DNA from: Nannocystis exedens
GTDB lineage: Bacteria > Myxococcota_A > Polyangia > Polyangiales > Polyangiaceae
Direction: 5' to 3'
Assembly (NCBI GenBank): GCA_945861885.1
Contig: CAMAVR010000008.1
Coordinates: forward strand, 22,994-86,993
Length of the DNA: 64,000 nucleotides
How positions within the stretch are numbered: the stretch's first letter is position 1; every line of letters begins with the position of its first letter. The position numbers and the translations under genes are program-made. Below are positions 11,538-64,000 of this stretch, piece after piece. Below the pieces are notes generated by a model. That model was given only the letters and a program-made list of their open reading frames with translations, had not been told where the DNA came from and made no database searches.

Positions 11538-12437
11538 ATGTCGATGATTCTAACTTCCAAACAGATGCGCGAGCATCGCATTCGAGCGAACGGGCTCAAT
11601 CATAACGTGCTCGAATGGCCCGCCGAAGGGGGGGGCGACCCGGTCGGCACGGTGCTTCTGCTGCATGGCTACATGGACGCGGGGGCGACATGGGACTTCG
11701 TCACACCGCACCTGACAGCGGCGAATTTTCGCGTATTTGCGCCCGATTTGCGCGGTTTTGGCGATACCGATCGCATCCCGGCGGGCGGCTACTATCACTT
11801 CCCCGACTACATCGCCGACGTGGCTGAGCTTATCGATGCGCTCTCGCTGCCGACACCGCTCTACCTGGTCGGACACTCGATGGGAGGGGTGATCGCCACG
11901 ATGTTCACCGGAGCGTTTCCCGCTGCTGTCGCGAAACTGGCTCTGCTCGAGGGGTCAGGGCCGCCGGGGAGCACGTTCGATACCGTCCCCGACCGGATGC
12001 GAACGTGGATCGACAACCTGCGCGCCACACGCCAGCGAAACGAAGCGCCGCGAAACACGAACAGCGAAAGCCACGCGCTTAGGCGGCTCTACATGAACCA
12101 CCCCCTGATATCACACCAAGTACTGAAAACGCGCCTACCGCACCTGGTAAAGCATTTGAGCGACGGGACGGTCGAGTGGAAGTTCGATCCGCTCCACAAG
12201 ACCACGGCGCCGATACCGTTTTATTCGGCGAGCTACGTTGCATTCGCAGAACGAGTCGCCTGCCCGGTGTTGGCCATCGGAGGCGGTCCCACCGGGTGGC
12301 GCGCCGAGGATGAAGCAGCACGACTGGCAGCGTTTAAGCATCTCACCGAGGCGAGCATCGAAAGCGCAGGGCACATGATGCACTGGACCGAACCAGCCGA
12401 AGTAGGGCGACTGATCGTCAATTTTTTCCGGCGATAA
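11538..12437 (+). CDS. Alpha/beta-hydrolase-fold protein
   Basis: The 299-aa single-domain protein has the oxyanion-hole motif LLHGYMD, the DLRGFGDTD turn and the nucleophile elbow GHSMGG near residue 112. A late Asp/Glu and the His in AGHMMHW near the C-terminus can complete the triad. The overall pattern is like serine-hydrolase-like (SERHL) and epoxide-hydrolase relatives, so it probably hydrolyses an ester or epoxide in the cytosol; no signal peptide is visible. The ATG at 11538 is followed closely by other in-frame ATGs, so the exact start is uncertain. Its 3' end overlaps the end of the convergent flippase gene by 20 bases. Confidence 0.85.
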   Translation: MSMILTSKQMREHRIRANGLNHNVLEWPAEGGGDPVGTVLLLHGYMDAGATWDFVTPHLTAANFRVFAPDLRGFGDTDRIPAGGYYHFPDYIADVAELIDALSLPTPLYLVGHSMGGVIATMFTGAFPAAVAKLALLEGSGPPGSTFDTVPDRMRTWIDNLRATRQRNEAPRNTNSESHALRRLYMNHPLISHQVLKTRLPHLVKHLSDGTVEWKFDPLHKTTAPIPFYSASYVAFAERVACPVLAIGGGPTGWRAEDEAARLAAFKHLTEASIESAGHMMHWTEPAEVGRLIVNFFRR

Positions 12438-14034: not shown

Positions 14035-15473
14035 CACAGCACGATGTGCTTCCACGCCCCTTGCCGAAACTTTGCCGTCATTGTCACTGCGGCCAGAACA
14101 AAGTAGACGCACGCAGCCGCGAAAACGCCGACAAGACCGAACTCCATCACCACGCCAAACAGATAGGCGAGGGGGAGTAGAACGCCGAAAATTAGAACGA
14201 GCTGCGCGAGCGCGACAAACTTGGTGTTGCCCGCGCCAAAGAGCGCTTCACTCAAAATCATCGCGACGGCGATGATCGGCGTTGCCGCCGCGATCATTCG
14301 TAGCGGGACAAGCACCGCCGCCTGAACCGGCTCCGACTGCGAGAAAAAGTCGATGATCGGCTTCGTGAAGAGCACCCCTTCGCAGAGCGCTACGACGCCA
14401 AAAATCATCACGCCGAGGCGCACGCTTGCCCAGCCAAACTTCTCGGCGCGATCGAACGCTTTTGCTCCGAGTGATTGGGCTACCAGAGTCGCCGTCGCCG
14501 TCCCGAATGCGATGCACGCCGTGAACGTCAACTTCAACACCGCGACGATGTTTGTTGTTGCCGCGCCGTTGACCGCTTCGAGATGACCGCAGACGCTCTC
14601 GACCATCGACGAGACGGCGCTCTTGGCGCTTAGCGCATCGAGCTCGCCTACAATGGCTGAAAACAGCCCAAATCCGAGCATCATCGTCGTCGTTGCAATC
14701 GCCGCCGGCACCGACAACTTCAAAAGGTTAAGCATCAGCGATGCCGATACGCTCTTGACCTGCATCGGCCTAAACTCGCGTTGCGCGCCGGCGGTGAAAA
14801 GAAGCATGATCGCGAGGCCGATCCAGGTCGAAAGAAAGGCGCTGAGACCCGCCCCTTCTGCCCCCATTCGCGGCGCGCCCCAATTGCCGTAGATAAACAT
14901 CCAGCAAAAAAGGACGTTGAACGCGTTCATGACCAACGCCGACCACAAGTGAACGTGCGTCCGACCGATCCCGTCGAAAAACGCTTTGATCCCCATTGTC
15001 ATCGCCATCGAAATGACGCCGAGCAGCCGCCATTGAGAATACGTCAGGGCAATCTCGCGCACTTCAGGGATGCGGATCATCACCGACAACAGTGGTCTCA
15101 ACGCGAGAAGGCCGATTACGGTTAATAGCGCGCCCGCGATGAGCGAAAAGGCGATCGAATTCGCGAGAACGGCTCCCGCTGCCTTCCGCTCACCTTCCGC
15201 GTAACGACGCGCTGTGAGCGCCTGTGTCCCCACGCTGATAGCGCTTAGAGACCCGCCAAAAAGCCATACGATGATGAGCGATGGGAGGAGCGCGGCCTGC
15301 GCATTTGAAGCCTCAGGGCACGGAAGGCGCCCGAAAAAAATGACATCGATCTCGTTAACGGCGCTTTGCGAAAGCATCGCGATAACCGTTGGGAGAGCGA
15401 GACGAAAGATCGTCGAATAGTTTACCGGCCTATTTCCCGGCGTTGAGTGAGGTGACTGGGCAATCGCTCCCAT
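14034..15473 (-). CDS. MATE-family efflux transporter
   Basis: The 479-aa, 12-helix protein has the MATE layout: an N-terminal LALPTVIAMLSQSAVNEIDVIFFG and the conserved region around GGSLSAISVGTQALTARRYAEG, with the same pattern recurring in the second half (GTATATLVAQSLGA). MATE proteins export drugs or metabolites using Na+ or H+ gradients. Its stop overlaps the start of the flippase gene (ATGA at 14031-14034 on the minus strand), so the two transporters are made together. The start at 15473 faces the Pal-like gene, with a shared intergenic region of about 95 bases. The substrate is unknown. Confidence 0.9.
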   Translation of the reverse strand: MGAIAQSPHSTPGNRPVNYSTIFRLALPTVIAMLSQSAVNEIDVIFFGRLPCPEASNAQAALLPSLIIVWLFGGSLSAISVGTQALTARRYAEGERKAAGAVLANSIAFSLIAGALLTVIGLLALRPLLSVMIRIPEVREIALTYSQWRLLGVISMAMTMGIKAFFDGIGRTHVHLWSALVMNAFNVLFCWMFIYGNWGAPRMGAEGAGLSAFLSTWIGLAIMLLFTAGAQREFRPMQVKSVSASLMLNLLKLSVPAAIATTTMMLGFGLFSAIVGELDALSAKSAVSSMVESVCGHLEAVNGAATTNIVAVLKLTFTACIAFGTATATLVAQSLGAKAFDRAEKFGWASVRLGVMIFGVVALCEGVLFTKPIIDFFSQSEPVQAAVLVPLRMIAAATPIIAVAMILSEALFGAGNTKFVALAQLVLIFGVLLPLAYLFGVVMEFGLVGVFAAACVYFVLAAVTMTAKFRQGAWKHIVL

Positions 15474-19303: not shown

Positions 19304-20224
19304 CTACTTGACTGGATTTTCAGCTTCGCGACGCTTGAGCGCCCGACGTGCAGACGCGATCGACACCAGGCCTACCCCGCACGCGCTGGCTACGCACAAC
19401 CAACGCAGGGCTCCTGGCGGCGACCCGTTCGGCGAGTGCCGCGCGGCCGCGAGGACGTCTTCGCCGTAGCGCCTTGCGAGCTGCTGATCGGTCGACACCG
19501 ACAGCTCCTGCATCGACAGATGGAACTCGGCATCGCTCGGCGGCTGTCGAAACGTAAAAACATAAAATGCCAAATCCCAACGTTCATCGTCGCTCAGTGC
19601 ATCATAAAAACTCGGCATTGCGGTCGAGAAAATCCCTGAGTTTATAAAGTTGAACGCGCGGTAGGGCGACAAGTGATTCATCAGGTCCGAATCGTGGAAA
19701 CTCGCGGGGCGAGGCTCTAGCGACTCTGCGAACGGCGTATCGCCCGTGCCATTTTCGCCATGGCACGATGCGCACCGCGATTGAAACAGTTGTGCAGCGC
19801 GCGCGAAATTGACCGGCGCGGCCGGCGCGGTTGGTAGAGACAAGAGCGCCGCGATTTCTCCCGCTAAACGCTTGCAGTCGGCGCTCACGCCATCCGGATC
19901 CGAGAGCGCCATGACACGCTCGCGTATCGATTCGATCGTCCGGATAAACGCCTCGCCTCGGCGCTCTGCGCGGACGAGACGCACCGCTTCTTGCGCAAGC
20001 CGCTTCTGCTCGACAATTTCGAAAGCAGCCCCCTCTTCAATCGCTTCGGGGTACTCTTCTTCGAGATAAAGAAGGATGCTCACGAGCTGCTGCAAAGGGC
20101 TGAGCGGCGATGCGTCGGCGCGAGTTGCAAAGAGAGCTGCGAAAATAAGGCAGACCGTCAGTCGAACAAATAGACGTGCGGCGCGGGCGTCTGCACACGC
20201 GAACCGACCCGAAGCGCGCTTCAT
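19304..20224 (-). CDS. Membrane-anchored cytochrome c with FTR1-type N-terminal domain
   Basis: The 306-aa protein begins with a signal peptide (about residues 12-35). It then has a helical region starting SPLQQLVSILLYLEEEYPEA, typical of the periplasmic domain that precedes FTR1 iron permeases. A class I cytochrome c domain follows, with heme site CASCHGENGTGD near residue 150 and a candidate Met ligand in TAMPSFYD. A single hydrophobic segment near the C-terminus (LRWLCVASACGVGLVSIA) is followed by basic residues. The FTR1 permease itself is missing. I chose the ATG at 20224, because the upstream extension to 20722 only reads through a DNA palindrome and the next gene. A role in electron transfer or iron uptake is inferred. 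Confidence 0.78.
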   Translation of the reverse strand: MKRASGRFACADARAARLFVRLTVCLIFAALFATRADASPLSPLQQLVSILLYLEEEYPEAIEEGAAFEIVEQKRLAQEAVRLVRAERRGEAFIRTIESIRERVMALSDPDGVSADCKRLAGEIAALLSLPTAPAAPVNFARAAQLFQSRCASCHGENGTGDTPFAESLEPRPASFHDSDLMNHLSPYRAFNFINSGIFSTAMPSFYDALSDDERWDLAFYVFTFRQPPSDAEFHLSMQELSVSTDQQLARRYGEDVLAAARHSPNGSPPGALRWLCVASACGVGLVSIASARRALKRREAENPVK

Positions 20225-20267
20225 CGGATCAAGTTGGCATGCCAGAGCCCGCGCCCGCAATGGCCGA

Positions 20268-20387
20268 TCTAAAATTCCGCCCCGTAAACGTGCCCGTGCC
20301 CGTAAACGTGCCCGGCATTTGAAATGGTTGAGCGCTCGGACGAGAAAAAGCCGGGCACGTTTACGGGCACGGGACAGAATTTTGAGA
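20268..20387. repeat. Long palindromic repeat, family A copy 1
   Basis: Left arm 20270-20315 contains two units of CCCGTAAACGTG ending CCCGG. A ~35-base loop ending GAGAAAAAG follows, then a right arm (20351-20386) with CCGGGCACGTTTACGGGCAC and GAATTTT. It lies between the stop of the repeat lipoprotein gene and the start of the cytochrome c gene. It can form a very stable hairpin in either strand. Confidence 0.9.
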
Positions 20388-20405
20388 GCACGTCCCAGTC
20401 GATGA

Positions 20406-21011
20406 CTATCTCGGCCGGCTAGGTCGACGCGAACCGCGCCCTGGAGCCCTGCCTGGTGCTCCGACGATTCCACCGCGAGATACATCGCAGCCGGCATCGA
20501 CATCTGCTGCTGGATCTCCAACCGGCGCTCCCTGCCCCGGATCGCCACTCGGCGCGCCTTGCGTTGGGTCGCCAGTCTGCGCCCCTTGCGTCGGATCGCC
20601 AACCGGCGCGCCTTGCGTCGGGTCGCCGCTCTGCGCGCCTTGCCATGGGTCGCCGACCGGCGCCACGATGCCGCCACCTCGCGTCGCCGATAGAATCGGG
20701 CCAAGCCCTGCCAAGAACGCACCGAGATCGAATGTCGGCGAATTAAGTATTGCTGGGTCGGACAGCCCTAGCGCGCCGAGAACTGATGGATCGCCGGTGA
20801 TTTCGATGTTCCCGACATCGACTCGGCGATTTGTGTCGACCGACCTTCTTGCACCGTTCGCTGCTGACACGGTGCGCAGATCGCTCTTTTCGAACGCGGT
20901 CTGCTCCGCTTCATCCTCGGCCACCCCTCCACAGGCGGCCAGGAAAACCGCCGCAGCTGTCGTGATGACGAATGCGGAACCAATTGCTCGTTCGCGGTGG
21001 GCCTGTTTCAT
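20406..21011 (-). CDS. Lipoprotein with tandem nonapeptide repeats
   Basis: The start at 21011 has a strong AGGAGG ribosome site, and the signal peptide ends in FLAACG, a clear lipobox. The mature ~180 residues are polar. The C-terminal third holds about five consecutive nine-residue repeats (GDPWQGAQS, GDPTQGAPV, GDPTQGAQT, GDPTQGAPS, GDPGQGAPV), then a single Cys and a basic, Gly/Pro-rich end. No enzyme fold is recognised. The repeats may form an extended stalk or bind cations, but this is speculation. It lies between two copies of palindromic repeat family A, so transcription is likely bounded on both sides. Confidence 0.7.
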   Translation of the reverse strand: MKQAHRERAIGSAFVITTAAAVFLAACGGVAEDEAEQTAFEKSDLRTVSAANGARRSVDTNRRVDVGNIEITGDPSVLGALGLSDPAILNSPTFDLGAFLAGLGPILSATRGGGIVAPVGDPWQGAQSGDPTQGAPVGDPTQGAQTGDPTQGAPSGDPGQGAPVGDPAADVDAGCDVSRGGIVGAPGRAPGRGSRRPSRPR

Positions 21012-21175
21012 GGGAGACCTCCTATGTGAAGATGCCGACCGCTCCCCAGCGTTGGGAGGAGTGCGGCCGACTTTTACTGTGGTCCCAAAATAAGAAAAAG
21101 ACACGTCGCCTAACTGGATGACGGTGCGGCGGCTCTTGTGGGTGCGAGTGGCTGCCCTGAAACGGGCTGTTAGCG

Positions 21176-21329
21176 CGTGATCTCATATTCAGTCCGTGCC
21201 CGTAAACGTGCCCGTAAACGTGCCCGTAAACGTGCCCGGCTTTTTCTGCTCTGCTCCCAGAAAAGAAGAAACCGGGCACGTTTACGGGCACGGGCACGTT
21301 TACGGACCGAATATGAGATCAGGCCCCTA
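21176..21329. repeat. Long palindromic repeat, family A copy 2
   Basis: Left arm starts GATCTCATATTC at 21179 and carries three units of GTGCCCGTAAAC ending CCCGG at 21239. The loop holds GCTCCCAGAAAAGAAGAAA. The right arm (21272-21320) mirrors it, ending GAATATGAGATC. It occupies about half of the 315-base gap between the repeat lipoprotein and the phosphoesterase and touches the phosphoesterase stop codon. Copy 3 at 32372 is nearly its exact reverse complement. Outside it, the gap (21012-21175) shows only the AGGAGG site of the downstream gene. Confidence 0.92.
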
Positions 21330-22397
21330 ATGACAATTCGTCGACCCTGAATCTCGGAACGCCCCTTCCGACGGAACGAACTCCCAATCATAACTCTCGG
21401 CGTGCAGCGTAAACTTGATGATCCCGTGTGTGTCGGCGTTGAGCGCTTCGCTGTTGGCGATCGGCTTATCGACCGCTCGAAAGTCCGCGCCGCCGGTCCC
21501 GACAACAAATTGGCGAACTCCGCGCTCGAGATCGAGCGTTCCATCGGCGCGGAGCGGCGCGAATCGTTCGTAGTCGTGATCGTGCCCCGTCACGACAACG
21601 TCGGCGCCTGCCTTGTAGAGCTCGTGAAAAATCGACTGCATCGCCCTATCGTTGCCGTGAGCGCCAGAGCTGAAACGCGGGTGGTGCCAATATGCCATCG
21701 TGCATTTCGTCGAATGCGCCGCGAGGTCGGCCGCGAGCCAAACCCCCTGCGGCGAAGTCGCACCGCAACCGCCGATGCTGCCGCAGTTGCTGTTAATCGC
21801 GACAATGTGCCACGCCCCAACTTCGTAGCTGTAGTACCCCTTCGTCGGATCGCCCGCGAGCTTACCAAAGTAGTCGAAATAGCCCTTCGCTCCGCGCGTG
21901 ATGTATTCGTGGTTGCCGGGGACCGGCTTCATTCGCGCTTTGTAGCGCCCCCACGTCGGCTCAAAACAGCTGCGATATTCGTCGCTCGACCCTACGTAGT
22001 ATGCGTTGTCACCGGCGAGAAAAATCGTCCCTTCAAATCGACCAAGAAGGTCGGCGGTTTTGGCTGTGCTCGGGCTATTGCACAGCGCAATGTCTCCCGC
22101 GCCGACGATGACCGGGTCGGTCTCGCTAACCGGGCGGACGGTCCCCGACCCGCCAGGCGGCTCGGCCGGCGGGTTGGCTGGAGGATTGCCAGGCAGGTTG
22201 ACAGGGGGGTTGACCGGAGGGTCGACCGGAGGATTGCCAGGCACGTTGCCAGGGGGATTGGCCGGCGGCTCATCGCCTGAGGCGAGCCCACGGCGCGGAG
22301 ATGCCGACTCGCCCCCAGAACAGCTGGCGACCGCAAGCACACACACACCCGCGAGCAAATGACCAACAACCGACGGAAGCGTTGAACTCTTCGCCAT
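21327..22397 (-). CDS. Metallophosphoesterase lipoprotein with Pro-rich stalk
   Basis: The start at 22397 is preceded by a G-rich ribosome site. The signal ends in LAVASC. Residues ~35-80 are a ladder of PPxNPP/PGNPP units, presumably a rigid spacer. The catalytic domain follows with dinuclear-metal motifs of the calcineurin/purple acid phosphatase type: GDIALC, GDNAYY near 129, GNHEY near 160, an HH in YWHHPRF, and GHDHDYERFAP near 270. It should hydrolyse phosphomonoesters or phosphodiesters on the cell surface or in the periplasm; the substrate is unknown. An in-frame ATG at 22430 lies upstream of the ribosome site and was not chosen. It is divergent from carB. Confidence 0.88.
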   Translation of the reverse strand: MAKSSTLPSVVGHLLAGVCVLAVASCSGGESASPRRGLASGDEPPANPPGNVPGNPPVDPPVNPPVNLPGNPPANPPAEPPGGSGTVRPVSETDPVIVGAGDIALCNSPSTAKTADLLGRFEGTIFLAGDNAYYVGSSDEYRSCFEPTWGRYKARMKPVPGNHEYITRGAKGYFDYFGKLAGDPTKGYYSYEVGAWHIVAINSNCGSIGGCGATSPQGVWLAADLAAHSTKCTMAYWHHPRFSSGAHGNDRAMQSIFHELYKAGADVVVTGHDHDYERFAPLRADGTLDLERGVRQFVVGTGGADFRAVDKPIANSEALNADTHGIIKFTLHAESYDWEFVPSEGAFRDSGSTNCH

Positions 22398-22625
22398 AGA
22401 CCCCCCCCTACTTTTTGGTGTTCGGAACAACGGGCGCGGACGTTAGGCGCAAGTCGGCACAGCGCAACTTCGCAATTTCCGACGTGCCGGCCGTGAGACT
22501 CAAAACAAAAAATTGCTTCACAATCCATACGCTCCTTACGTAATGAACCGCATAGAAGTGGCTTTTTTATGGCGAGAGGGTGGCTTTTTCGCGACTGTAA
22601 ATCTTCAATCTGCTGATCGGCTTTT

Positions 22626-22654
22626 TTCGACAGACTCCTGACAGCTGCTATGGC
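22626..22654 (+). promoter_or_regulatory. Possible promoter for carB
   Basis: TTCGAC (22626-22631) and TATGGC (22649-22654) are separated by 17 bases, ending 11 bases before the ATG of carB. The match to a sigma-70 promoter is weak. No PyrR-type or attenuator leader is visible in the 268-base region between the divergent genes. Confidence 0.22.
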
Positions 22655-22665
22655 ATGCGATTGAA

Positions 22666-25600
22666 ATGCCGAGACGAACCGACCTAAAACGCATTCTGCT
22701 TGTCGGAGCCGGTCCGATTGTGATCGGCCAGGGGTGTGAGTTCGACTATTCGGGGACTCAAGGAGCCAAAGCGCTCCGCGAAGAGGGGTACGAGGTCATC
22801 CTCGTCAACTCAAACCCGGCGACGATCATGACCGATCCCGAGCTCGCGATCCGGACGTACATCGAACCGCTCGAATGGCGCCACATTGCCGCGATCATCG
22901 AGCGCGAGCGCCCCGATGCGATTTTGCCGACACTCGGCGGACAGACAGCGCTGAATCTCGCGCTACGCCTCGGTGAAGAGGGGGTCCTCGAGCGATTCGG
23001 CGTCGAGATGCTCGGAGCCAAACCGGAGTCGATTCGGAAGGCGGAGGATCGCGCGCTCTTCAAAGAGGCGATGGAGCGCATCGGCCTCCAGTGCCCACGC
23101 GCGGCGGCGGTGCACTCAATCGAAGAGGCGTGGGTCGCCGTCAAATCGACCGGGTTCCCAGCTATTTTGCGCCCCTCTTTCACACTCGGCGGCACCGGCG
23201 GGGGGATTGCTTATGGCCCCGACGAGTTCGAAACCAAAGTCGCGTGGGCGCTTCTACAGTCGCCAACGCACGAAGTGTTGATCGAAGAGAGCGTGCTCGG
23301 ATGGAAAGAGTACGAGCTCGAAGTGATGCGCGATCGCGCCGACAATTTTATCGTCGTCTGCTCCATTGAGAACATCGACCCGATGGGGGTGCATACGGGC
23401 GACTCGGTCACCGTAGCCCCAGCAATGACGCTGACCGACCGCGAATATCAGCGCCTGCGCGACGCGGCTCGCGCCGTGATGAGCGAGATCGGTGTGGAGA
23501 CGGGCGGCGCCAATGTGCAGTTTGCTGTCTCGCCGACCGACGGCCGCGTTTATGTCATCGAGATGAACCCGCGCGTCTCGCGTTCAAGCGCGCTCGCGTC
23601 GAAAGCGACCGGCTATCCGATCGCAAAAATCGCGGCAAAACTGGCGATCGGCTACACGCTCGACGAACTGACAAACGACATCACGCGAACAAGTGCGGCG
23701 TTCGAGCCGGTCACCGACTACGTCGTGGTGAAGTGGCCGCGATTTGCGTTTGAAAAGTTTCCTGGGGCGGAGACCACCCTCGGGACGCAAATGAAGAGCG
23801 TCGGCGAGGCGATGAGCATCGGCCGCACGTTCGCCGATGCGCTCCAAAAGGCGGCGCGTTCGCTGGAGACGGGGCGCGATGGGCTCGTCTCACTGATCGG
23901 TCGTGTCGACTACCGCGAACTTGCGGCTCCGAAAAAAACGCGCGATCTCGCGATGGACGCTCCGGTGAGTCAACCGCCCAGTTCGCGGCCCCCCGCAAGC
24001 TCTGACGAGCTTCTCGAAGCGGTTTTGCGCGTCGTGGCGATGCCAACAGCCGACCGACTTTTTCACATCGCAGACGCGATGCGCCTCGGCGTGAGCGACA
24101 GCGAGCTCGCGGCGCTGACCGCGGTTGATCCGTGGTATCTGGCGCAATTTCGGCGGATTGTTGACGGAGAGTCGCTGATCGCGCGCGGCGATATCACAGC
24201 GCAAACGATGCGTCACTTGAAGCGTATCGGTTTTAGCGACTCGCAGATCGGCGCGCTCGGCGGCAGCTGCGGCGATGACGTGCGCGCTCTTCGCGAGAGC
24301 TTCGGTATCAAACCGGTGTTCGCTCGAGTCGATACGTGCGCTGCCGAATTTGTCGCGCATACGCCGTATCTCTACTCATGCTACGAGTCGGAAACCGAGT
24401 CGGATGTCTCGAGCGCCAAACCAAAAGTCGTGATTCTCGGCGGCGGCCCAAACCGCATTGGTCAGGGGATCGAGTTTGACTACTGCTGCGTGCACGCCGT
24501 ACAGGCGCTTCGCGAGCTCGGTTTCGAGACCGTGATGGTGAACTGCAATCCGGAGACAGTGTCGACCGACTACGACACCGCCGATCGCCTGTATTTCGAG
24601 CCGCTCTCGCTCGAAAACGTGATGGCGATTCTCGACGAAGAAAAGCCTATCGGTGTGATGGTGCAATTCGGCGGGCAGACGCCGCTCAAGCTGGCCGTGC
24701 CGCTCGAAAAGCGCGGGGTGAAGCTCCTTGGCACAAGCGCCGACGCGATCGATCGCGCGGAAGATCGCGGTCGCTTCGACGATCTGCTCTCGAAGCTCGC
24801 GCTCAAGAGGCCGCGAAGCGGCATCGCGCACACGATCGACGAGGCAAAAGAGATCGCGAAGAAAATAGGCTTTCCGGTGCTCGTGCGGCCAAGCTATGTG
24901 CTCGGCGGTCGGGCGATGATGATCGCCTACTCCGAGAGCGAGTTTGAGGCTTACGTGCACGAAGCGGTCGCCGTCGCGCGCGACGCGGGGACAACAGCCA
25001 TTCTCGTCGACGAATTTTTGAAAGACGCGATCGAAGTCGATGTCGATTGCGTATCGGACGGTCGCCGGTGCGTCATCGGCGGCGTGATGCAGCACATCGA
25101 AGAAGCGGGCGTTCATTCGGGCGATTCGTCGTGCGTATTGCCGCCGCATTCGCTTAGCCCCGAGATTGTTCTGTCGATCGAAGAGCAGTCGCGCATGCTC
25201 GCTCTGGAGCTCGGCGTTGTCGGACTGATGAACGTTCAGTTCGCCGTCAAAGGGGGCGAAGTGTACGTGCTCGAAGTGAACCCGCGCGCAAGTCGATCGG
25301 TGCCGTTCGTGTCAAAAGCGACGGCGAGGCCGATCGCGAAAATCGCGGCGCAGCTGATGATCGGCAAGACGCTCGATGAGCTCGGTATCGAAGATGTGCC
25401 GATGCCGGCGCACGTGGCTGTCAAAGAGAGCGTCTTTCCGTTTTCAAAGTTTCCTGGGGTCGATACGATTTTGGGGCCCGAAATGCGTTCAACCGGCGAA
25501 GTGATGGGGATCGCTGATACATTCGCGCGCGCATTTTCCAAAGCGCTCGCCGCCACTGGGATCGATCTGGTAAAAGGGGCCGCACCCGGCGGTCGAAAGC

Positions 25601-25995
25601 CGACCGCATTCGTCAGCGTGCGTGACGAAGACAAACCGGTCGCCTGCAATATCGCGCGGCGCCTACGGGCGCTCGGCTACGATATTTTGGCCACACGGGG
25701 GACGGCAGCGGCGCTCTCGCGCGCGCGAATTCCGAGCGAAGTGATTAACAAAGTGAACGAGGGTGGGCCGCACGTCGTCGATGCAATTCGATCGGGACGC
25801 GTTGCGCTTGTCGTGAACACGACCACCGGCGCGAGCGAAGTGCGAGACAGCTATTCGGTGCGGCGGCAAACGGTACTATCAAACGTGCCATATTTTACGA
25901 CAACCGCCGCGGCGCTAGCAGCCTGCGACGCCCTAGAAGTTTCGCGCAACGACACAACACCGCAAGTCCGCTCAATGCAAGAGTGGAATGCGTAA
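22666..25995 (+). CDS. carB: Carbamoyl-phosphate synthase large subunit
   Basis: This enzyme makes carbamoyl phosphate from bicarbonate, ammonia from CarA and two ATP, for pyrimidine and arginine synthesis. The 1109-aa protein shows the duplicated layout: N-terminal half with [19 protein letters not shown] and an ATP-grasp domain ([15 protein letters not shown]), a helical oligomerisation region around 440-570, then the second half with [20 protein letters not shown] and its ATP-grasp ([15 protein letters not shown]). The C-terminal allosteric MGS-like domain ends it ([18 protein letters not shown]). It is slightly longer than the E. coli protein. carA is not in the window. A hairpin and repeat region follow the stop. 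Confidence 0.98.
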
Positions 25996-25998
25996 GGA

Positions 25999-26187
25999 GT
26001 CCTTCTCCCGTGGGGAGAAGGAAAGCGCGACGCAGTCGCGCGAGGTTGAGGGCTCCGGCGATCAACCGAGAAGCGATCGTACGGAACCGCTCACCCCCCC
26101 TCACCCTCGCGTGACTTCGTCACACTTTCCCCTCACCCTCGCGTGACTTCGTCACGCTTTCCCTCTCCCGCTTCGCGGGAGAGGTGA
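25999..26187. repeat. Inverted pair of GC-rich repeats, family B copy 1
   Basis: The gap between carB and the FliJ-like gene (251 bases) is filled by this. A left unit (26000-26055: hairpin CCTTCTCCCGTGGGGAGAAGG, then AAAGCGCGACGCAGTCGCGCGAGG) is followed by ~44 bases of spacer. A right part holds two tandem copies of CCTCACCCTCGCGTGACTTC and closes with CTCTCCCGCTTCGCGGGAGAGG. The right part is the inverted form of the left. The first hairpin, 5 bases after the carB stop, may serve as its terminator. Confidence 0.85.
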
Positions 26188-26246
26188 GTCAAGTTCTTGG
26201 GTGGGGGGGCTTGATTTCTTGCGCCGGCGAATGGCATTCGTCGACG

Positions 26247-26780
26247 ATGCCTGCCGCCCCGACCCGGTACCCGCTTAGGTCACTGCTAACGCTTCGCGAA
26301 TGTGACTATCGGAGTAGCATCGTAGCGCTTCGCGAGGCGCTGGCGGCGCGTTCGTCGGCTGAAGCGTTGTGCGTGGAGGCAAGCGCGTTACGAGAAGCGT
26401 CGCTGCTCCGTGCCCAGAGGGCCCGAGAACACGAGGCGCTTCTTGCGCTTAGCGGTGGCCTCACGGCCCGGGACTTGCAGCAGGCCACTTATGGGGCGAT
26501 CGGCGAAACACTCGCGAACGAGAAGCATCTTGGCGTAGTGTCGGAGGCGCGTAAGATGCTCGAACTGCGTATCGCCGAGACGGACGAGGGGGCTGCGAAT
26601 ATTGCGTCAGCTCGCGCGCAGCTGCGTGCCGTCGAGAATCATCGCGCGGCATTTGCAGGGCGAGTTGAGAGCGCGCGAGAGAGGCGCGACGAAGACGAAG
26701 CGGGCGACAGATCCGCGTTTGGAACGCAAGTCGAGCGTATCGCCGCTAGGCGCGACCCAAATTACGCGAGGCGCGCATGA
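26247..26780 (+). CDS. FliJ/YscO-like coiled-coil protein (tentative)
   Basis: The 177-aa protein is almost wholly helical and coiled-coil, rich in Ala, Glu and Arg, without Pro or Cys-rich parts. It starts PAAPTRYPLRSLLTLRECDY, which resembles the opening of FliJ and YscO, the stalk proteins of flagellar and type III export ATPases. It ends with a charged RERRDEDEAGDRSAF segment, also typical of that group. Its stop overlaps the start of the lytic transglycosylase as ATGA, so the two are coupled. No other type III or flagellar genes are in the window, which weakens the assignment. The start at 26247 follows the repeat region; an extension to 26184 would be coded by the repeat. Confidence 0.55.
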   Translation: MPAAPTRYPLRSLLTLRECDYRSSIVALREALAARSSAEALCVEASALREASLLRAQRAREHEALLALSGGLTARDLQQATYGAIGETLANEKHLGVVSEARKMLELRIAETDEGAANIASARAQLRAVENHRAAFAGRVESARERRDEDEAGDRSAFGTQVERIAARRDPNYARRA

Positions 26781-28939
26781 AGAGGCGCCGGCGCGCTTCA
26801 AAAAAACCGATGACGTCCAAAAACATCGCTTCCTTTGCCGTAAAATCGCTTGTCATTTGCCTTGGCGCGCTCGCTTCCGATTGCTTTGTCGCGCGCGGAC
26901 CGCAAACGCCTGCGGTCGAGGCGGCCGATCGCTTTCGTCTCGACCCTGCCGATGTCGATGTCGGCTTTCGCTCGGCGATTGATGACGTTCAATTTGCCGT
27001 CGCGCGCGAAAAGCTCGCAAGCGGCGATTTCATCGGCGCCGCCACCGAGATCGCGAGCATCGAGCAATCGAACCCGCTCGCAGACCGCTGCGCGCTTGCG
27101 TACATCGAAGCGCGCCTCTATTCGCTTGGCAATTCGCCCGACGCGCCCGGCGCATGGGACCGCGCGGCATCATGGCCGCTCGGAAATCGAGTTTTGCCAC
27201 CGGTAGCGCTCGCGCGGTCGGTTGGCATCAAGCCATCGACGAACCAATCGCCGCCATCCGTGACGATCTGTCCGCTTGGCGATTTTGCCCTTCTTCGCTC
27301 CGCGCAGGCCTATCTTAAAGCCGATCAGCCGATGGAAGCGCTCGTTCGCCTTCGCTCGATTCCGGTGACGTTCGCGCTTTACGATGATGTTCGCGCCGCA
27401 ATCGCAGAAGTTCATTTGCACCCGACCGCGCCGCGCACAATCCATCCGGCGCCGCCACCATCGCACACGCATCGTACTCCGCGCCCAATCGATCACCATC
27501 CGCATTCATGCCGCGACGCGATTGTGCAAGCGCAGGCACATCCAAAGCCGCGCGCAGTCGCCGCCGACCTTTGGGAATTTGCGATTCTCCGCTGCACCGA
27601 ACCGGACGACTTGGCGATCGCGCTCTACAGCGGCGGCCGAGCGAGCTTTGGCGCGCACCGGCTCGACGAAGCCGAAGCGCGATTTTCGGCGCTCGAGCGG
27701 CGTTTCCCCCAGCACCGGCTCGCCGACGATTCGCGCATTTTTCGCTCCGAAATCGCGCTTGATCAAGGCGACTCGGAGCGGGCTACTACGCTCCTCCACG
27801 CGTCGCCCGACGATTATCCGCACGGTGACATGCGCATCGAAGCGTTCTTTCGCGTCGCCCTCATTCGGATGCGTTCAGACGACTGGGCCGCCGCAATCCC
27901 GCCGCTCAACCGGGCGGCGTCGCTTGAAGCGGCTGAACCACGATGGGCTTCGTTTGGGCGCATCGCCTACTTTCGCGCACGCGCCGAAGAGATGACGAAT
28001 GGCCCGCACGCCGCGGTCGAAATGTACCGCCAAGTGATCGCGAACTACCCGCTCACATTCGCGATGGTGCAGGCGTTTTCACGCCTCTCTGAGTACAGCG
28101 TAAGCGCCGCGCGGGCCGCCGTTGACGATGCCTCCGCGCGTGACGCGATCGAACTCGATATTGCCGCACCCGAAACCGCGTCGGCGCGAACTACCGCCCA
28201 TTTTGCGCTCGGCGCAAGCCTTCTGAGCGTCGGTGACATCGAAGCCGCGCGCAAAGAGTGGCTTCACGATCATATCATCGGCGAACACGCGCCACCGGAG
28301 CTTCAGTGGCGTGCGGCCCGTTTTTTAAGCGCTGCCGGCTCACCCGAACATGGACACGTATTTTCGCGTACCCGTTGGCTTCAGTTCGCTCAGCACTACC
28401 CTACCGGCAAGTGGCGCGAAGGGTGGCTCGCCGCATTTCCGCTCGCATTCCGTTCGAGCGTTGAGACAAGGGCAAGGGAGGCCGGCATTCCCAAATCGCT
28501 CGTATGGGCGATCATGCGCGAAGAGTCGGCGTACAACGCTGAGGCGCGCAGCGCGGCCGATGCGTTTGGGCTGATGCAGCTAATAGCAGCAGCGGCAAAA
28601 GATGCGGCTCGAGGCACGACGTTGAGCACCGACGCAGCGTCGCTCGTAACCGCCGACACCTCCATCGCGCTGGGCTCGCGGTTTTTGCGGTCCCTTCGAG
28701 ATCGCTTTCAGTCGAACCCTCAGCTTGCCGTGCCTGCTTATAACGCGGGGAGCGGGGCGGTCGACCGGTGGATCGCTGAGTTCGGCACCTCCCCCTTTGA
28801 CGTGTGGGTCGAGCTCATCCCATGGGAAGAGACGCGTCTGTACCTCAAGCGAGTACTCTCGAGCGAAGCGGCTTATTCGTTCTTGTATGCTCGTAACGAG
28901 ATGAATGATGTATTTCATGCGCCGCCCTTTGTCCGGTGA
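26777..28939 (+). CDS. Lytic murein transglycosylase (Slt70-like)
   Basis: The 720-aa exported protein has an N-terminal hydrophobic segment after a very basic start, then a long alpha-helical superhelix of tetratricopeptide-like pairs. The C-terminal goose-lysozyme-like SLT domain follows, with the catalytic Glu in MREESAYNAEA near residue 581, GLMQLI, and AYNAGSGAVDRWI. It cleaves glycan strands of peptidoglycan to 1,6-anhydromuropeptides. Residues ~214-248 are a His/Pro-rich insertion (PTAPRTIHPAPPPSHTH) that standard Slt lacks. The start overlaps the FliJ-like gene. Coupled transglycosylases often open the wall for secretion machines, which fits a FliJ/YscO partner. Its 3' end overlaps radC by 25 bases. 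Confidence 0.9.
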   Translation: MKRRRRASKKPMTSKNIASFAVKSLVICLGALASDCFVARGPQTPAVEAADRFRLDPADVDVGFRSAIDDVQFAVAREKLASGDFIGAATEIASIEQSNPLADRCALAYIEARLYSLGNSPDAPGAWDRAASWPLGNRVLPPVALARSVGIKPSTNQSPPSVTICPLGDFALLRSAQAYLKADQPMEALVRLRSIPVTFALYDDVRAAIAEVHLHPTAPRTIHPAPPPSHTHRTPRPIDHHPHSCRDAIVQAQAHPKPRAVAADLWEFAILRCTEPDDLAIALYSGGRASFGAHRLDEAEARFSALERRFPQHRLADDSRIFRSEIALDQGDSERATTLLHASPDDYPHGDMRIEAFFRVALIRMRSDDWAAAIPPLNRAASLEAAEPRWASFGRIAYFRARAEEMTNGPHAAVEMYRQVIANYPLTFAMVQAFSRLSEYSVSAARAAVDDASARDAIELDIAAPETASARTTAHFALGASLLSVGDIEAARKEWLHDHIIGEHAPPELQWRAARFLSAAGSPEHGHVFSRTRWLQFAQHYPTGKWREGWLAAFPLAFRSSVETRAREAGIPKSLVWAIMREESAYNAEARSAADAFGLMQLIAAAAKDAARGTTLSTDAASLVTADTSIALGSRFLRSLRDRFQSNPQLAVPAYNAGSGAVDRWIAEFGTSPFDVWVELIPWEETRLYLKRVLSSEAAYSFLYARNEMNDVFHAPPFVR

Positions 28940-29604
28940 AATAGCCCGCTCTCGAGCATCGACACGTAGCCATCACGCGCGACAACGATGTGGTCGAGAA
29001 GCGGCGCGCCGACAATCGACGCGGCGCGCGCGAGCTGATCGGTAAACTCGATGTCATCGGCGCTCGGTGTCGGGTCGCCGCTTGGATGATTGTGCGCGAG
29101 GATAAACGCGCTTGCCCCTTCGCGAAGCGCGATGCGCAGCGGGTCGCGCTTGGCGACGTGAAGACCGTGTAAACCGCCGCTTGCGACACGCCTTGCCGCT
29201 CGCAATTTATTTCGCCCATCGAGCGCGAGGAGCCACAACTCTTCGTGATCGAGCGACGCGATCCGCGGACGCGCCCACCCGTCGACGGCGCGGCTCCGCG
29301 GAAACTCGGCCGTCGCTCCGCGCATCTGCTCGATTGCGACGCGGCGACCGAGCTCCATCGCTGCGGCGAGACGCCCCCCTTTTGCGCAGCCGATCCCGCC
29401 GCGGGACGCGAGGCCGCCGATGCCGACCCGCGCGAGGCCGCCTAGGCCGCCGCACTCATCGAGCAGTGTCGACGCCATGACATGCACCGATTGGCGCGCG
29501 TCGCCGGTGCCGAGCACCAGCGCGATAAGCTCGGCATCACCGAGCGCCTCTATCCCCTGTTCAATCGCCCGCTCGCGCGGACCTGCTGTTATTGCAAAGG
29601 TCAT
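28915..29604 (-). CDS. radC: RadC family JAB-domain protein
   Basis: The 229-aa protein has an N-terminal helix-hairpin-helix-like region (GPRERAIEQGIEALGDAELIALVLGTG) and a C-terminal JAMM metallo-domain with HNHPSGDPTPSADD, the H-x-H-x7-S-x2-D metal motif. The family was once thought to act in DNA repair; its real role is unsettled. I chose the ATG at 29604, which gives the usual RadC length. A longer frame to 29970 would read through the palindrome cluster and the start of the next gene. It converges with and overlaps the transglycosylase gene, and diverges from the large lipoprotein gene. Confidence 0.93.
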   Translation of the reverse strand: MTFAITAGPRERAIEQGIEALGDAELIALVLGTGDARQSVHVMASTLLDECGGLGGLARVGIGGLASRGGIGCAKGGRLAAAMELGRRVAIEQMRGATAEFPRSRAVDGWARPRIASLDHEELWLLALDGRNKLRAARRVASGGLHGLHVAKRDPLRIALREGASAFILAHNHPSGDPTPSADDIEFTDQLARAASIVGAPLLDHIVVARDGYVSMLESGLFHRTKGGA

Positions 29605-29676
29605 AGTAGGCGTCACTAGAGCAACACGGATGCCAACGCGATTTCGCGATTTTACCGTGTTTTTTCGGCTCGCAAA

Positions 29677-29830
29677 CTGTCCTGGACGTCCAGGGGGGTG
29701 TCCCGGACAGGCGGCGACCTCGACCTCAACATCGATCCTCGCGATCGGAGATCGGAGGTCGCTATCGATCCTCGCCGTCGATCCTCCCGGGCAGTTGCAC
29801 TGCAACTTCACCGTGCTACCGATTTGGGCC
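29677..29830. promoter_or_regulatory. Palindrome cluster in the radC/lipoprotein divergent intergenic region
   Basis: In this 281-base divergent gap I see a perfect 14-base palindrome CCTGGACGTCCAGG (29681-29694) nested in a CTGTCC...GGACAG inverted repeat (29677-29710), then several CGATC and CCTCG units. A perfect AGTTGCA-C-TGCAACT dyad lies at 29793-29807, with another GTTGCG...CTGCAAC nearby. The dyads have the size of operator sites for a dimeric regulator. The CGAC repeats resemble those before the pilin operon. Confidence 0.45.
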
Positions 29831-29885
29831 GCCGTTGCGACACTGCAACGACGTCCGGTTTTGCAAAGCTCAGCATCTGCACTGG

Positions 29886-32372
29886 ATGGAAAAAATGAAT
29901 AGAGGCTTCTTGACTCCGCGTGCTGTCGGTCTTTTTCTGGCGTGCCAGTCGGTTCTCGCGTGCGGTCCACACAACTCGGCAGAGTTCGAGTCGACCGCCT
30001 CCGTCGCTTCCGAGGTGAAGGGCGATAGGCGAGGCAAACAAGCGGCCGCAGCAGCAGCCTCCCCTAGCCCCGCTCCCGAAATGGCGGCCGAAGACATCGC
30101 CGCGTTGTTGGTCGAAATCGCAACTCAGGCGCGCGCGGAAAAGTTGTTGATACAAGCGACCCCCGAGGTTCTGCGCACCAACGTCGCTGCGTCTAAAATC
30201 GATCGCGACAGATTGCGCCATGCCGCGCAGCACCTGCCGGAATTTTTCTATTCGCGTGCCGCGAAACGCTTCAAAGGCGACAAATGGGCAACACGCGAGC
30301 TGTTTCGGACTGACGCACAGGGCGATGAGCTGCGGCGCATGTTCATTGATCTCGCGTACGTAACGCCCGATCTTCTTCTGTCATTTGCAAACGCAGAAGT
30401 GTTGGAGCTCGCTGTCCTTTCGTCAACGGAAGCGTTTCGCGCCGCGAGCAAAGGAGAGCGCGACCGCCAACTCGCTGAGCAACTCACAAAGATCTTTTTG
30501 TTTGTCGACGAAGCGCTCACCTTCCGCACCGCAATGGTACCGAGCGATCGTTCACGCCTCGAAGAAGGCGCATGGGGCGTCATCGACGGCAGAATGTTCA
30601 CCCGACAGACGATCGACCGCGTCTATATCGCGGCGCTTGGTGCTTCGTTGCTCCCGCGCCTGCAGATCGCTCTTCCAGGCGGGGCGATCGAACAGCGGCG
30701 GCTTCTCACTCCCCACCGAAAAAGCATGGGGGACATCGTCGCTCTGCTAGCGCCAGCTGAGATTGAAGCGACGAAATTTAGAGAGTTTGGGGATGACGAA
30801 AAGCGCCTCTTCCGCGCGAGATGTCATGCGTCCACGCTTTATTGGGGCGCGGTCATTCACGATCCAAGCAAAACGGAAATGCTCGCCGACGTATCTGCGC
30901 GACTGGATAGCCACTTCGCAGTGACCCTTCAGGGCGGCAGCGCGCTAAAAGCGCCGCTCCGAGGGATCATGCTGGCGCAGATTGCCACGCTCTCTTGCGC
31001 CGAATCGGCAATCGCACAGACAGAAGGTCCGCTCCCGAGCATCGGCGTCTGCACGCGCCTCGTCGATCTTTTTGAGATCCTCGATGCAAAAGCGCGAGGT
31101 CTTTCCGCTCCCGCGGCAGACGTTCCAGACATGACGGCTGATAGCTTATGGGCAGCCGAAGCGATCTCGGATTTCGATAGGTCTGAAGGCGAGTGGCTGC
31201 TTACGCGCTACCGTGCGACGCCCGCGGCGACGCCTCGTTCGCTTCATGAGTTGAAGCGTCAGGTGGAGGCGTTGAGGGCTCGCAAGGCGCAGCTGGACGC
31301 CGCGGCGAAGGCGGCCGCGGATCAACAGGAGGCAACCAGAGCTGAAACTGAAAGAAGCCTGATCGCCGATGAAAGGCTGGAGCGCGCGGAGAGAGCTCGG
31401 ACTCGTGAGGACGCACGCGCAGCCGAACGTGCTGAAGAGGCCGCGCACAAGGCGCGCGATGACGCGCGTAAGGCGCGACGCGAGATGCACTTGCAGCAAG
31501 AGTCTACGCTGTTCCAGCGCACCGTCTTTAGCTCAACTGTGCCAGCTCAGCCGGACGCGCCTCCTCCAGCTTGGAAGTACTCGCAAGACCAAGCGATGTT
31601 GGCGATTGCACAAAACGACTTCGGTGCTGCTGTGTTCTTTTACGAGCAGAGCATTCTCGCACTTCAACAAGCCAGCCATGGTCTCGACCAGCTTCGCGTC
31701 TATCTTGGGGCGGCAGAATGCTACCTCATGCACTACAAATATCTCATGTCGGTGCAGAAAATGGCGCCGATCGTTGAGAGCATGAGGAGCGAAATCGAAA
31801 CGTGGGAGGCTTCGCAGAGGTGGACCGGGCCATTTGAAGAGCTCGACGACCGCTTGTGGGCGCTGGATACATTGGCGACCGACCTTGCGAACGTCTATCC
31901 GCTTCAGAGAGCGCTCGAGCTCTACCGCATCGCCGGCGGCTACCCGCAGACGCTTTGGACGCAGCTGCCAGGCTTGGACATGATCCTCGAAAGCCATGCG
32001 ATGCTACTCGACAGCCCCGCGCAGTTTGACGAGTGGAACCGAGTCGCAACGAAATGGTGGAGGTTCCGAGGCGAGTTCATTGGCTCGGCACGCAAAGCTC
32101 GCGAAGCCAAAGAAGGCAAGCGGCGCTATCAAGGGGAGCCACAGGAGAAGCGTGACCTGCCAGTTCTAGATTCGCTCTCGTACACCGCTCAGATTGCCGA
32201 AGAACTTGACGGCCTCCGCGCAACCAGAAGGAGCATGATGGAAGGCGTAGCGCACCCGCCGGCATCGACCCACGAGACAGCAGCGGCGGCGGCTGCAGAT
32301 CCGTCGACCCAAGAACAGTCGGCGGCACCCCGCGCGATCCAACCGATGCTGACGCCGGGGAACAAAGACTAG
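29886..32372 (+). CDS. Large lipoprotein of unknown function with central coiled coil
   Basis: The ~828-aa product has a lipoprotein signal ending in SVLACG within the first 30 residues; a second ATG at 29895 is equally possible. An Ala-rich linker follows, then a helical region to about residue 440, and a very charged coiled coil (about 450-540, with runs of Ala, Glu and Arg such as RERAERARTREDARAAERAE-like heptads). A C-terminal helical domain with a TPR-like look (QDQAMLAIAQNDFGAAVFFYEQ) comes last. I do not recognise a family. The protein resembles envelope scaffold proteins. It ends directly at palindromic repeat family A copy 3, which separates it from the convergent Cys-rich lipoprotein gene. 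Confidence 0.72.
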   Translation: MEKMNRGFLTPRAVGLFLACQSVLACGPHNSAEFESTASVASEVKGDRRGKQAAAAAASPSPAPEMAAEDIAALLVEIATQARAEKLLIQATPEVLRTNVAASKIDRDRLRHAAQHLPEFFYSRAAKRFKGDKWATRELFRTDAQGDELRRMFIDLAYVTPDLLLSFANAEVLELAVLSSTEAFRAASKGERDRQLAEQLTKIFLFVDEALTFRTAMVPSDRSRLEEGAWGVIDGRMFTRQTIDRVYIAALGASLLPRLQIALPGGAIEQRRLLTPHRKSMGDIVALLAPAEIEATKFREFGDDEKRLFRARCHASTLYWGAVIHDPSKTEMLADVSARLDSHFAVTLQGGSALKAPLRGIMLAQIATLSCAESAIAQTEGPLPSIGVCTRLVDLFEILDAKARGLSAPAADVPDMTADSLWAAEAISDFDRSEGEWLLTRYRATPAATPRSLHELKRQVEALRARKAQLDAAAKAAADQQEATRAETERSLIADERLERAERARTREDARAAERAEEAAHKARDDARKARREMHLQQESTLFQRTVFSSTVPAQPDAPPPAWKYSQDQAMLAIAQNDFGAAVFFYEQSILALQQASHGLDQLRVYLGAAECYLMHYKYLMSVQKMAPIVESMRSEIETWEASQRWTGPFEELDDRLWALDTLATDLANVYPLQRALELYRIAGGYPQTLWTQLPGLDMILESHAMLLDSPAQFDEWNRVATKWWRFRGEFIGSARKAREAKEGKRRYQGEPQEKRDLPVLDSLSYTAQIAEELDGLRATRRSMMEGVAHPPASTHETAAAAAADPSTQEQSAAPRAIQPMLTPGNKD

Positions 32373-32517
32373 GGCCTGATCTTATATTCGGTCCGTAAAC
32401 GTGCCCGTGCCCGTAAACGTGCCCGGTTTCTTCTTTTCTGGGAGCAGAGCAGAAAAAGCCGGGCACGTTTACGGGCACGTTTACGGGCACGGGCTGAATA
32501 TGAGATCACGCCCCTTG
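32372..32517. repeat. Long palindromic repeat, family A copy 3
   Basis: It begins at the last base of the lipoprotein stop codon with GGGCCTGATCTTATATTCGG and carries GTAAACGTGCCC units in the left arm. The loop holds TTCTTTTCTGGGAGCAGAGCAG, and it closes GAATATGAGATC before the stop of the convergent gene. The sequence is almost the reverse complement of copy 2 at 21176-21329, including the loop. It probably acts as a bidirectional terminator. Confidence 0.92.
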
Positions 32518-63621: not shown

Positions 63622-63637
63622 ATTCGACCAGCAGCTA

Positions 63638-63670: not shown

Positions 63671-63746
63671 AAAGTAAATTCAGGTGCTCGGCGCGCGAGG
63701 CCCGTAACCGTGCGACGTTATCGTTCACGTCTTCGTTCTCTCGTAG

Positions 63747-63773
63747 ACGTGCGCGTGCGCATGCGCATGCGCG
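63747..63773. repeat. Alternating purine-pyrimidine tract
   Basis: A 27-base run of strict purine-pyrimidine alternation, containing the perfect 16-base palindrome GCGCATGCGCATGCGC at 63757-63772. Such DNA can adopt the Z form or a cruciform. The units resemble those of the insertion in the flippase gene. Confidence 0.75.
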
Positions 63774-63818
63774 ATACGATTTGACGCAACATTTAGCTTC
63801 GACGGTCGATGTAATGGG

Positions 63819-64000
63819 ATGCAAACGGATCAACCGCATCTCGACCACGAAAATCTCGACGTCTACCGTTGTGCAATCGACTTTCTGCGAGTGGCCTTTG
63901 CGATCGTGGCTGCGCTGCCGCGCGGAGAAAGCGAATTGCGAAGCCAGCTGAAACGCGCGGCGATGTCGATGCCACTCAACATCGCGGAAGGGGCCGGTAA
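63819..64000 (+). CDS. Four-helix bundle protein (23S rRNA intervening-sequence family), start only
   Basis: The frame opens with the ATG at 63819 and runs off the window end after about 60 codons. It reads ENLDVYRCAIDFLRVAF, then SELRSQLKRAAMSMPLNIAE and GAG, the hallmark pattern of the ~120-aa four-helix-bundle family first found in intervening sequences of 23S rRNA genes and now seen in many bacteria without that context. Here it stands outside any rRNA gene. The function of the family is unknown, though it is suspected to bind nucleic acids. The preceding 200 bases hold a hairpin and an alternating tract. Confidence 0.85.
   Translation, partial: MQTDQPHLDHENLDVYRCAIDFLRVAFAIVAALPRGESELRSQLKRAAMSMPLNIAEGAG

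Follow-up and report, generated by a model that had tools for sequence, protein, structure and literature searches.

The window analysed here, a stretch of 64,000 nucleotides from Nannocystis exedens (assembly GCA_945861885.1, contig CAMAVR010000008.1, positions 22,994 to 86,993), carries three long palindromes whose arms are built of short tandem units. We describe these palindromes, the larger elements of the same genome that share their ends and carry a gene for the 23S rRNA intervening-sequence protein (IVP, or S23), and the IVP genes that lie between repeat arrays in other genomes. The palindromes of the window, together with a fourth that a first-pass annotation had proposed, are the following:

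20266..20393, no strand assigned: palindrome copy 1, family-model score 92.6 bits
21173..21327, no strand assigned: palindrome copy 2, young subfamily, 103.4 bits
32372..32515, no strand assigned: palindrome copy 3, young subfamily, orientation opposite to copy 2, 107.1 bits
49605..49692, no strand assigned: alleged decayed copy 4, family membership not demonstrable

The three strong copies, reported in the first pass at 20268-20387, 21176-21329 and 32372-32517, are present as described. The sequence CGTAAACGTGCCCG, with at most two mismatches, matches the window 14 times, against a mean of 0.78 and a maximum of 4 in 100 shuffles, and the RNA folds of copies 1, 2 and 3 reach -61.4, -98.4 and -104.5 kcal/mol (z -7.75, -14.58 and -15.94). 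The arms of all three are chains of the units CCCGTAAACGTG (U) and CCCGTG (u). Copy 1 has an arm at 20281-20315 reading CCCGTAAACGTG CCCGTG CCCGTAAACGTG CCCGG, followed by the loop and a shorter arm at 20351-20373 (UuU versus Uu), and its outer ends are decayed (GATCTAAAATTC / GAATTTTGAGAGC). Copy 2 pairs UUU with about UuU, has the outer repeat CGTGATCTCATATTC / GAATATGAGATCAGG and is bordered by TA at 21171-21172 and 21328-21329. Copy 3 contains the same kinds of unit chains as copy 2, reversed, with a TA at 32370-32371, within the TAG stop of the open reading frame (ORF) 29835..32372, and no TA at its other end; as had been stated, copy 2 is close to the reverse complement of copy 3, also in the loop and at the ends. 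The palindromes have no transposase gene of their own and, at ~130-155 bp, are too short for one. The fourth reported palindrome is indistinguishable from chance: its fold z is -0.12, with 82 of 200 shuffles folding equally well, and a family model built from 22 members gives it 11.3 bits (E-value = 0.5). No Rfam family matched the window at curated thresholds.

The copies had also been said to start at or near stop codons. This applies to copies 2 and 3, where the TAG of the neighbouring ORF (21327-21329 on the minus strand and 32370-32372, respectively) consists of the edge TA plus the first G of the element, so that the stop is partly made by the element itself, which explains the earlier remark. 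Copy 1 sits between an ORF end at 20406 and a putative minus-strand gene start near 20225, and is spanned by a longer mechanical ORF (19304..20722).

The palindrome family and its larger relatives in the genome

The assembly containing the window is fragmented (3.42 Mb in 89 contigs). The repeats are not confined to the locus: a 16-mer of the arm, with at most one mismatch, has 378 sites genome-wide (reversed control, 0), and a covariance-model search found at least 46 distinct places with full palindromes scoring over 80 bits, plus 3 that reach about 46-64 bits. The palindromes are inverted doublets of short units with a short loop, and across 22 aligned copies the arms hardly vary, unlike the middle of the loop. 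Seven of them, including copies 2 and 3, form a young subfamily with one 27-base loop core, the same outer ends and unrelated flanks; since they share a loop core at unrelated sites, the palindromes move. Comparison of the young copies places the element boundaries at an outer inverted repeat C[G/C]TGATCTCATATTC; a TA lies three or four bases beyond it at 9 of 12 young ends (12 of 14 ends were matched by script, L072 being without one end and the other end of L073 having a changed base).

Concerning their placement, the position at gene 3' ends claimed for the copies fits those of the window and becomes a mild trend across 52 catalogued elements, which come from sampled stretches of the genome and were placed with crude ORF calls: 14 have a gene 3' end on both sides, 20 have a 3' end on one side and a 5' end on the other, 6 have 5' ends on both sides, 8 fall within a mechanical ORF and 4 are at an edge. 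Single arms also occur (e.g., C1:42262, C1:46524, C7:24259 and C7:81386), several with similar bases just inside CCCGG. At C5:33215-33374 (L042, L098) about a dozen CCCGTAAACGTG-type units make up one arm but only two its partner, which points to slippage. The end of contig C5 (L088) bears a group II intron (RF02005, 125.7 bits) at 91-336, upstream of a family arm near 1970; the sequence beside this arm recurs at the end of C56 (L072), interrupting the outer repeat of a young palindrome there, and may be the 3' end of the intron.

The arm is sparse or absent in 97 relatives. It was matched in 37 of them, mostly 1-5 times and largely with one mismatch, and the reversed control in 24; two genomes, both belonging to one genus, stand out with 7 and 24 matches, some of them in inverted pairs. 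The exact two-unit arm pattern was found in five stretches of named genomes, four in one Polyangiaceae metagenome-assembled genome and one in Anaeromyxobacter oryzae. The A. oryzae stretch (L153) contains at ~6467-6680 a nested palindrome that mixes GTAAACGTGCCC hexamers with CCCGTGG heptamers.

Many contigs of the assembly end in the same family arm. The 45-base right end of a larger element has 13 exact copies, 10 of which were seen within 230 bases of a contig end, as a multi-copy repeat that breaks the assembly would be. TA stands outside all eight right-end copies that were read, with differing bases beyond, and at the expected place in 10/10 larger-element ends read. In L109 the order is arm, IVP gene, remains of a transposase on the opposite strand, inverted arm and outer repeat. 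The IVP gene encodes a 119 aa protein (PF05635, E-value = 1.4e-20; TIGR02436), and the transposase pieces match PF13340 (E-value = 1.2e-23) and PF01609 (E-value = 1.9e-12) on separate pieces; their best NCBIfam model is IS5_3, whose cut-off one 115-aa piece passes. At curated score no Rfam family matched L109, and neither the window nor L109 is located in 23S rRNA by this search. Four copies with IVP or transposase pieces (L109, L113, L144 and L145) have YTAR just outside CGTGA[T/A]CTCAAAATCTG and the family arms inward, and the palindromes L080, L081, L030, L024 and L083 end in the same way; YTAR was found at 11 of the 12 older ends read, larger copies and palindromes taken together. YTAR is the target of IS5. 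The terminal repeats C[G/C]TGATCTCA... are common to palindromes and to copies with IS5-type pieces in one genome. The first-pass view of a mobile, non-coding, MITE-like element (miniature inverted-repeat transposable element) is supported by copies with the same loop at unrelated sites and by larger copies with transposase pieces and the same ends.

IVP genes between repeat arrays in other genomes

A second IVP type and a second palindrome family are present in the window:

13295..13397, no strand assigned: second palindrome family, inverted arrays of GTGCGC / GATCGT-type hexamers, fold z -7.12
63742..63773, plus strand: GTGCGC / ATGCGC hexamers upstream of the IVP gene
63819..63998, plus strand: start of the IVP gene, second type

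The palindrome at 13295-13397 lies in frame within the ORF 12418..14112 (minus strand), to which it adds a stretch rich in Arg, Thr, Ile and Asp; the product resembles a membrane protein, and a Pfam search with it gave no match. In the region 63630-64000 the window ends, together with its contig, inside the IVP gene, ~150 bases after a short end (TAGTGCCCCATCAACC...) that we take to be IS630-like. A similar arrangement was seen in L110. A reversed-pattern control was discarded because it is not independent for GTGCCC-type repeats. The second IVP type of the genome adjoins the second palindrome family, with its GTGCGC and GATCGT-type hexamers, and this suggested a rule linking IVP genes and arrays, which was then tested elsewhere.

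IVP was found in 33 of 59 relatives and in 45 of 141 genomes of the phylum, the genome of the window included. The discovery set took 80 of roughly 160 listed places and the replication set 60 of roughly 155, in listed order with few per genome; the sampling was non-random, as pair partners and many contig-edge places were skipped. One discovery locus (L198) was dropped since its flank is a run of N, leaving 79. The inverted-repeat test joined the two 700-base flanks of a gene and required a score of at least 20, with control positions taken from the same stretches at a distance of at least 2.5 kb; loci with fewer than 60 bases on one side have no inverted-repeat value (1/79 and 2/60). Significance was assessed by Fisher tests. 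In the discovery set a flanking inverted repeat was present at 22/78 IVP loci versus 1/505 control positions, a period-6 array on at least one side at 43/79 versus 25/505 (with L198, 44/80 versus 27/510), and such arrays on both sides at 16/79 versus 0/505. Among lags 4-15, lag 6 and its multiple 12 dominate (44/80 and 45/80), and a weaker excess appears at lags 7 and 14 (9/80 and 10/80 versus 7/510 and 6/510). With the same thresholds, the replication set gave 18/58 versus 0/255 for the inverted repeat, 24/60 versus 4/255 for an array on at least one side and 9/60 versus 0/255 for both sides. Cold-shock genes of the discovery-search genomes scored 0/30 on all three tests.

The association of IVP genes with inverted short-tandem-repeat arms extends well past this genome. 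Apart from L109, an IVP gene stands between inverted repeats at 40 of 136 loci of other genomes, where the arms enclose 376-1150 bases. These repeats are mostly hexamer arrays, the hexamer sequence differs between elements, and several of the replication set are not period-6 (L327, L338, L342 and L370). Either signal was positive at 47/79 discovery loci (hand count) and 34/60 replication loci; loci with neither include some of the best-scoring IVP genes (L208, L213, L214 and L216). At least one positive locus occurs in 24 of 31 discovery genomes, with positives transcribed by hand, and loci within one genome are not independent. The replication genomes are absent from the discovery set, G055 and G093 sharing a genus with one discovery genome. 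Some lag-6 runs may be coding repeats (e.g., L194 and L195), a risk that the controls carry as well; control positions are mostly genic, which the cold-shock control answers only in part, and the controls include no transposase family. Two early scans of 29 IVP loci, one for local palindromes with at most 200 bases between the arms (11/29) and one limited to arrays of CGTR-type hexamers (7/29), gave way to the flank-to-flank and period tests, since the gene lies between the arms and the units are variable.

IVP units also behave as movable segments. A segment shared over the IVP gene at different places was found in nine of 13 genomes tested (G062, G063, G064, G068, G072, G093, G133, G164 and G190), with lengths of 439-1531 bases; it was partial in G173, and there was none among the fetched loci of G016, G055 and G132. 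In G133, three units are 96-97% identical over 441-519 bases, with unrelated flanks beyond. They have the ends GGGCGCGA / TCGCGCCC and consist only of IVP, arrays and short ends, both arrays lying inside the shared segment; as hexamer numbers differ between copies this similar, slippage is real. The multi-copy unit of G064 (L230, L231, L232 and L261) has two convergent IVP genes, each beside its own strong hairpin, and hexamer arrays of CAGTGN/CAGCGN type that are direct, not inverted, in the three copies examined.

A tblastn search of plasmids with one IVP returned 24 records, mostly cyanobacterial, of which 18 form the plasmid set (in L387 and L397 the IVP gene is unannotated and its limits were set by hand). 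A flanking inverted repeat of score at least 18 was found at 9/18 loci versus 0/184 controls, mostly of heptamers and in one case of 8-mers. Arrays of period 6 to 8 lie within 400 bases of IVP in 18 of 23 cases, a span covering 20.9 of 134.9 kb; eight of the 18 loci have no such array. Three related Nostoc plasmids can be compared at two successive junctions that are occupied and empty in reciprocal fashion. At the first, an IVP unit with inverted GGAGTCA-type arrays is present in L392 and L395 where L396 has no more than a few bases separating the two genes. At the second, L396 has a different IVP unit with GGGAAAA-type arrays, the ATG of the junction being present on both sides of the insert, and nothing is inserted in L392 or L395. 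Each unit follows the stop of one gene and precedes the start of another, and neither empty site has an array. Additionally, L395 has an IVP-less palindrome with the same kind of heptamer arms inside its IVP gene, a counterpart to those of the window, and L392, which lacks it, provides the empty site. In L390 inverted heptamer arrays enclose both an ISL3-type transposase and an IVP gene, a second transposase type in such a unit. At the 16 plasmid loci where IVP and both neighbours are annotated, which are not all independent, IVP is co-directional with both neighbours in 12, opposite to both in three and mixed in one. On three cyanobacterial plasmids (L381, L383 and L389) the IVP genes stand within type I-D and III-B CRISPR operons, co-directional with the cas genes, and L381 contains more heptamer arrays, inside cas6 and around the cas4 end.

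Possible origin and movement of the palindromes

The window palindromes are, in our judgement, probably non-autonomous, MITE-like members of a mobile family related to the IVP-carrying IS5-type element. The element would be organised as TA, a few bases, the outer inverted repeat, an array of CCCGTA-AACGTG / CCCGTG hexamers, a centre, the inverted array, the inverted outer repeat and TA. The centre of the larger copies holds the IVP gene (S23, a four-helix bundle) and the facing IS5-family transposase pieces; in the palindromes both centre genes are missing and a loop of roughly 20-70 bases is left. An IS5-type transposase would act on the outer repeats and move complete and gene-less copies into YTA(R) sites. 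A purine nearly always follows the TA (G, with A at two young ends), so that an insertion at the TA of a stop codon would rebuild the stop and gene ends would tolerate it. The number of arm units would change afterwards by slippage, and the arms may be recognised or needed by IVP itself and not by the transposase alone. For this genome, an IS5-type DDE transposase working on the outer repeats would be the simplest motor.

Several observations weigh against this explanation. Among the copies read, there is no complete one with IVP, intact transposase and both ends; contigs break inside the larger element, and its transposase copies are deleted or cut (the pieces in L109 and L113 lack different parts, and those on C52 and C68 are cut). 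TA is absent at 3 of 12 young ends, and one young copy has CTAA/CTAA flanks that are imperfect or absent in the others, so that the signs of a target duplication are at most suggestive. For the window copies, the relatives listed, none of them of the same genus, showed no empty site. The simple model also leaves unexplained the 14 of 52 catalogued elements that are single arms. Finally, IS5 is unlikely to be the general motor of IVP units, since the span enclosed by the arms at the 40 loci elsewhere leaves little room for a transposase, and such a motor does not explain the IVP-only units of other genomes.

A role of IVP tied to the arrays is likely, given that arrays accompany it across hosts and transposase types. 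As a guess, IVP might be a nucleic-acid-binding partner that promotes the spread of hairpins; its solved relative, 2gsc, is a pentamer of four-helix bundles (PMC4990558). It is possible, if somewhat doubtful, that IVP itself drives the elements by binding the array hairpin as DNA or RNA, with a reverse transcriptase or transposase acting in trans and IS5, ISL3 and others as occasional partners. This would fit the ~0.44-1.5 kb of homology around IVP at different places in nine of 13 genomes and partially in one more, the G133 units with nothing beyond IVP, arrays and short ends, the 376-1150 bases between arms, the recurrence of arrays with IVP across hosts and transposase types (IS5 in this genome, ISL3 in L390) and the shared direction with both neighbours at 12/16 plasmid loci. 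It would also fit the resemblance of IVP to Avd, which diversity-generating retroelements need for retrohoming (PMC10053308); the bAvd match of IVP is weak and below the cut-off of that model. However, the outer repeat and TA of this genome fit a DDE transposase, the fetched loci of G055, G132 and G016 share no such segment, and we know of no catalytic activity of IVP.

It is unlikely that the palindromes are bidirectional terminators, as had been suggested in the first pass, or mRNA 3' stabilisers kept by selection for a benefit to the host. Such a function would suit the very stable hairpins and their mild excess at gene 3' ends, but scans limited to loops of 3-8 detected nothing terminator-like on the three palindromes, whose T-run is within the loop and does not follow the stem as it would in an intrinsic terminator. 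Moreover, six of 40 classified elements lie between two 5' ends and the family is sparse or absent in relatives. We give still less credit to the arrays being a pre-existing target beside which IVP units insert, or products of slippage around any inserted gene: unit number does vary between copies of 96-97% identity, but the two Nostoc empty sites have no array, the G133 units carry both arrays within the shared segment at unrelated sites, and cold-shock genes score 0/30, although no other mobile gene family was among the controls. Lastly, REP doublets forming hairpins (REPINs; REP, repetitive extragenic palindromic), moved in trans by a REP-associated tyrosine transposase (RAYT), are highly improbable here: REPINs, described as inverted doublets with a short loop and single-copy remnants (PMC3116915), share with the palindromes the inverted arms, short variable loop, single-arm remnants and mostly intergenic position, but the arms here are tandem hexamers, the outer repeats are TA-flanked, and the absence of any Y1_Tnp match or candidate from the assembly, in a search positive in 5 of 14 control genomes, speaks against a RAYT-driven origin.

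IVP units, rRNA intervening sequences and heptamer repeats

The closest known architecture is the rRNA intervening sequence (IVS). The 23S rRNA IVS of Coxiella is described as a selfish element of unclear origin that is cut from the rRNA by RNase III (PMC4990558), and Ralph and McClelland (1993, cited in the same paper) had considered a possible mobility role for the IVS gene. Like the units presented here, it has an IVP gene enclosed by inverted repeats, which pair into a long RNA stem. In contrast, our units occupy other, mostly intergenic sites in many copies, have tandem hexamer or heptamer arms and IVP-less forms and, in this genome, include transposase pieces. With IS5-family MITEs the palindromes share the lack of a transposase, terminal inverted repeats, a TA-containing target and larger relatives that have transposase pieces and the same ends; they differ in their sub-terminal tandem-hexamer arms of variable unit number and in the IVP of the larger relatives. 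Rickettsia palindromic elements are palindromes inserted in frame within genes, like the second-family copy at 13295-13397, from which they differ in sequence and size; to our knowledge, they have no IVP link.

Tandem heptamers have been described in Xanthomonas (GGGAATC) and Nostoc (GGGGATT) as G-rich and mostly intergenic, with 70 and 75 inverted pairs in two Xanthomonas species, where they lie nearer the preceding than the following gene; inverted pairs were few in Nostoc, and the repeats were not linked to mobile elements in general (PMC4692102). They resemble the plasmid IVP arrays in being tandem 7-mers, mostly intergenic and partly in inverted pairs, and differ in having been described without an IVP link. 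The terms S23 and four helix are absent from that paper, and TAACTGA arrays are likewise described without them (PMC4679880). No prior report linking IVP/S23 to tandem-repeat arrays was found among the top-ranked open-licence PMC literature, subscription papers and preprints being outside its scope.

We tentatively put forward, as a quite possible joint reading, that IVP/S23 genes are the hallmark of a class of selfish elements occurring in several phyla, with one or two IVP genes between short-tandem-repeat arrays, usually inverted, the units being hexamers in this phylum and mostly heptamers in cyanobacterial plasmids. IVP would recognise the arrays and promote spread, reverse transcriptases or transposases would be recruited in trans, IVP-less palindromes would be non-autonomous forms, and the rRNA IVSs would be members that landed in rRNA. 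Perhaps the long-known heptamer repeats of cyanobacteria and Xanthomonas are non-autonomous forms too. The origin and function of the 23S rRNA IVSs and of the S23/IVP protein have been called unclear (PMC4990558), and structural or regulatory roles are discussed for bacterial tandem heptamers (PMC4692102; PMC4679880), which have no agreed explanation. Array-bracketed IVP genes, replicated in a second set of genomes and seen at occupied and empty sites, join these two puzzles, and the function of IVP becomes testable through its binding to its own repeat and through the movement of units without IVP.

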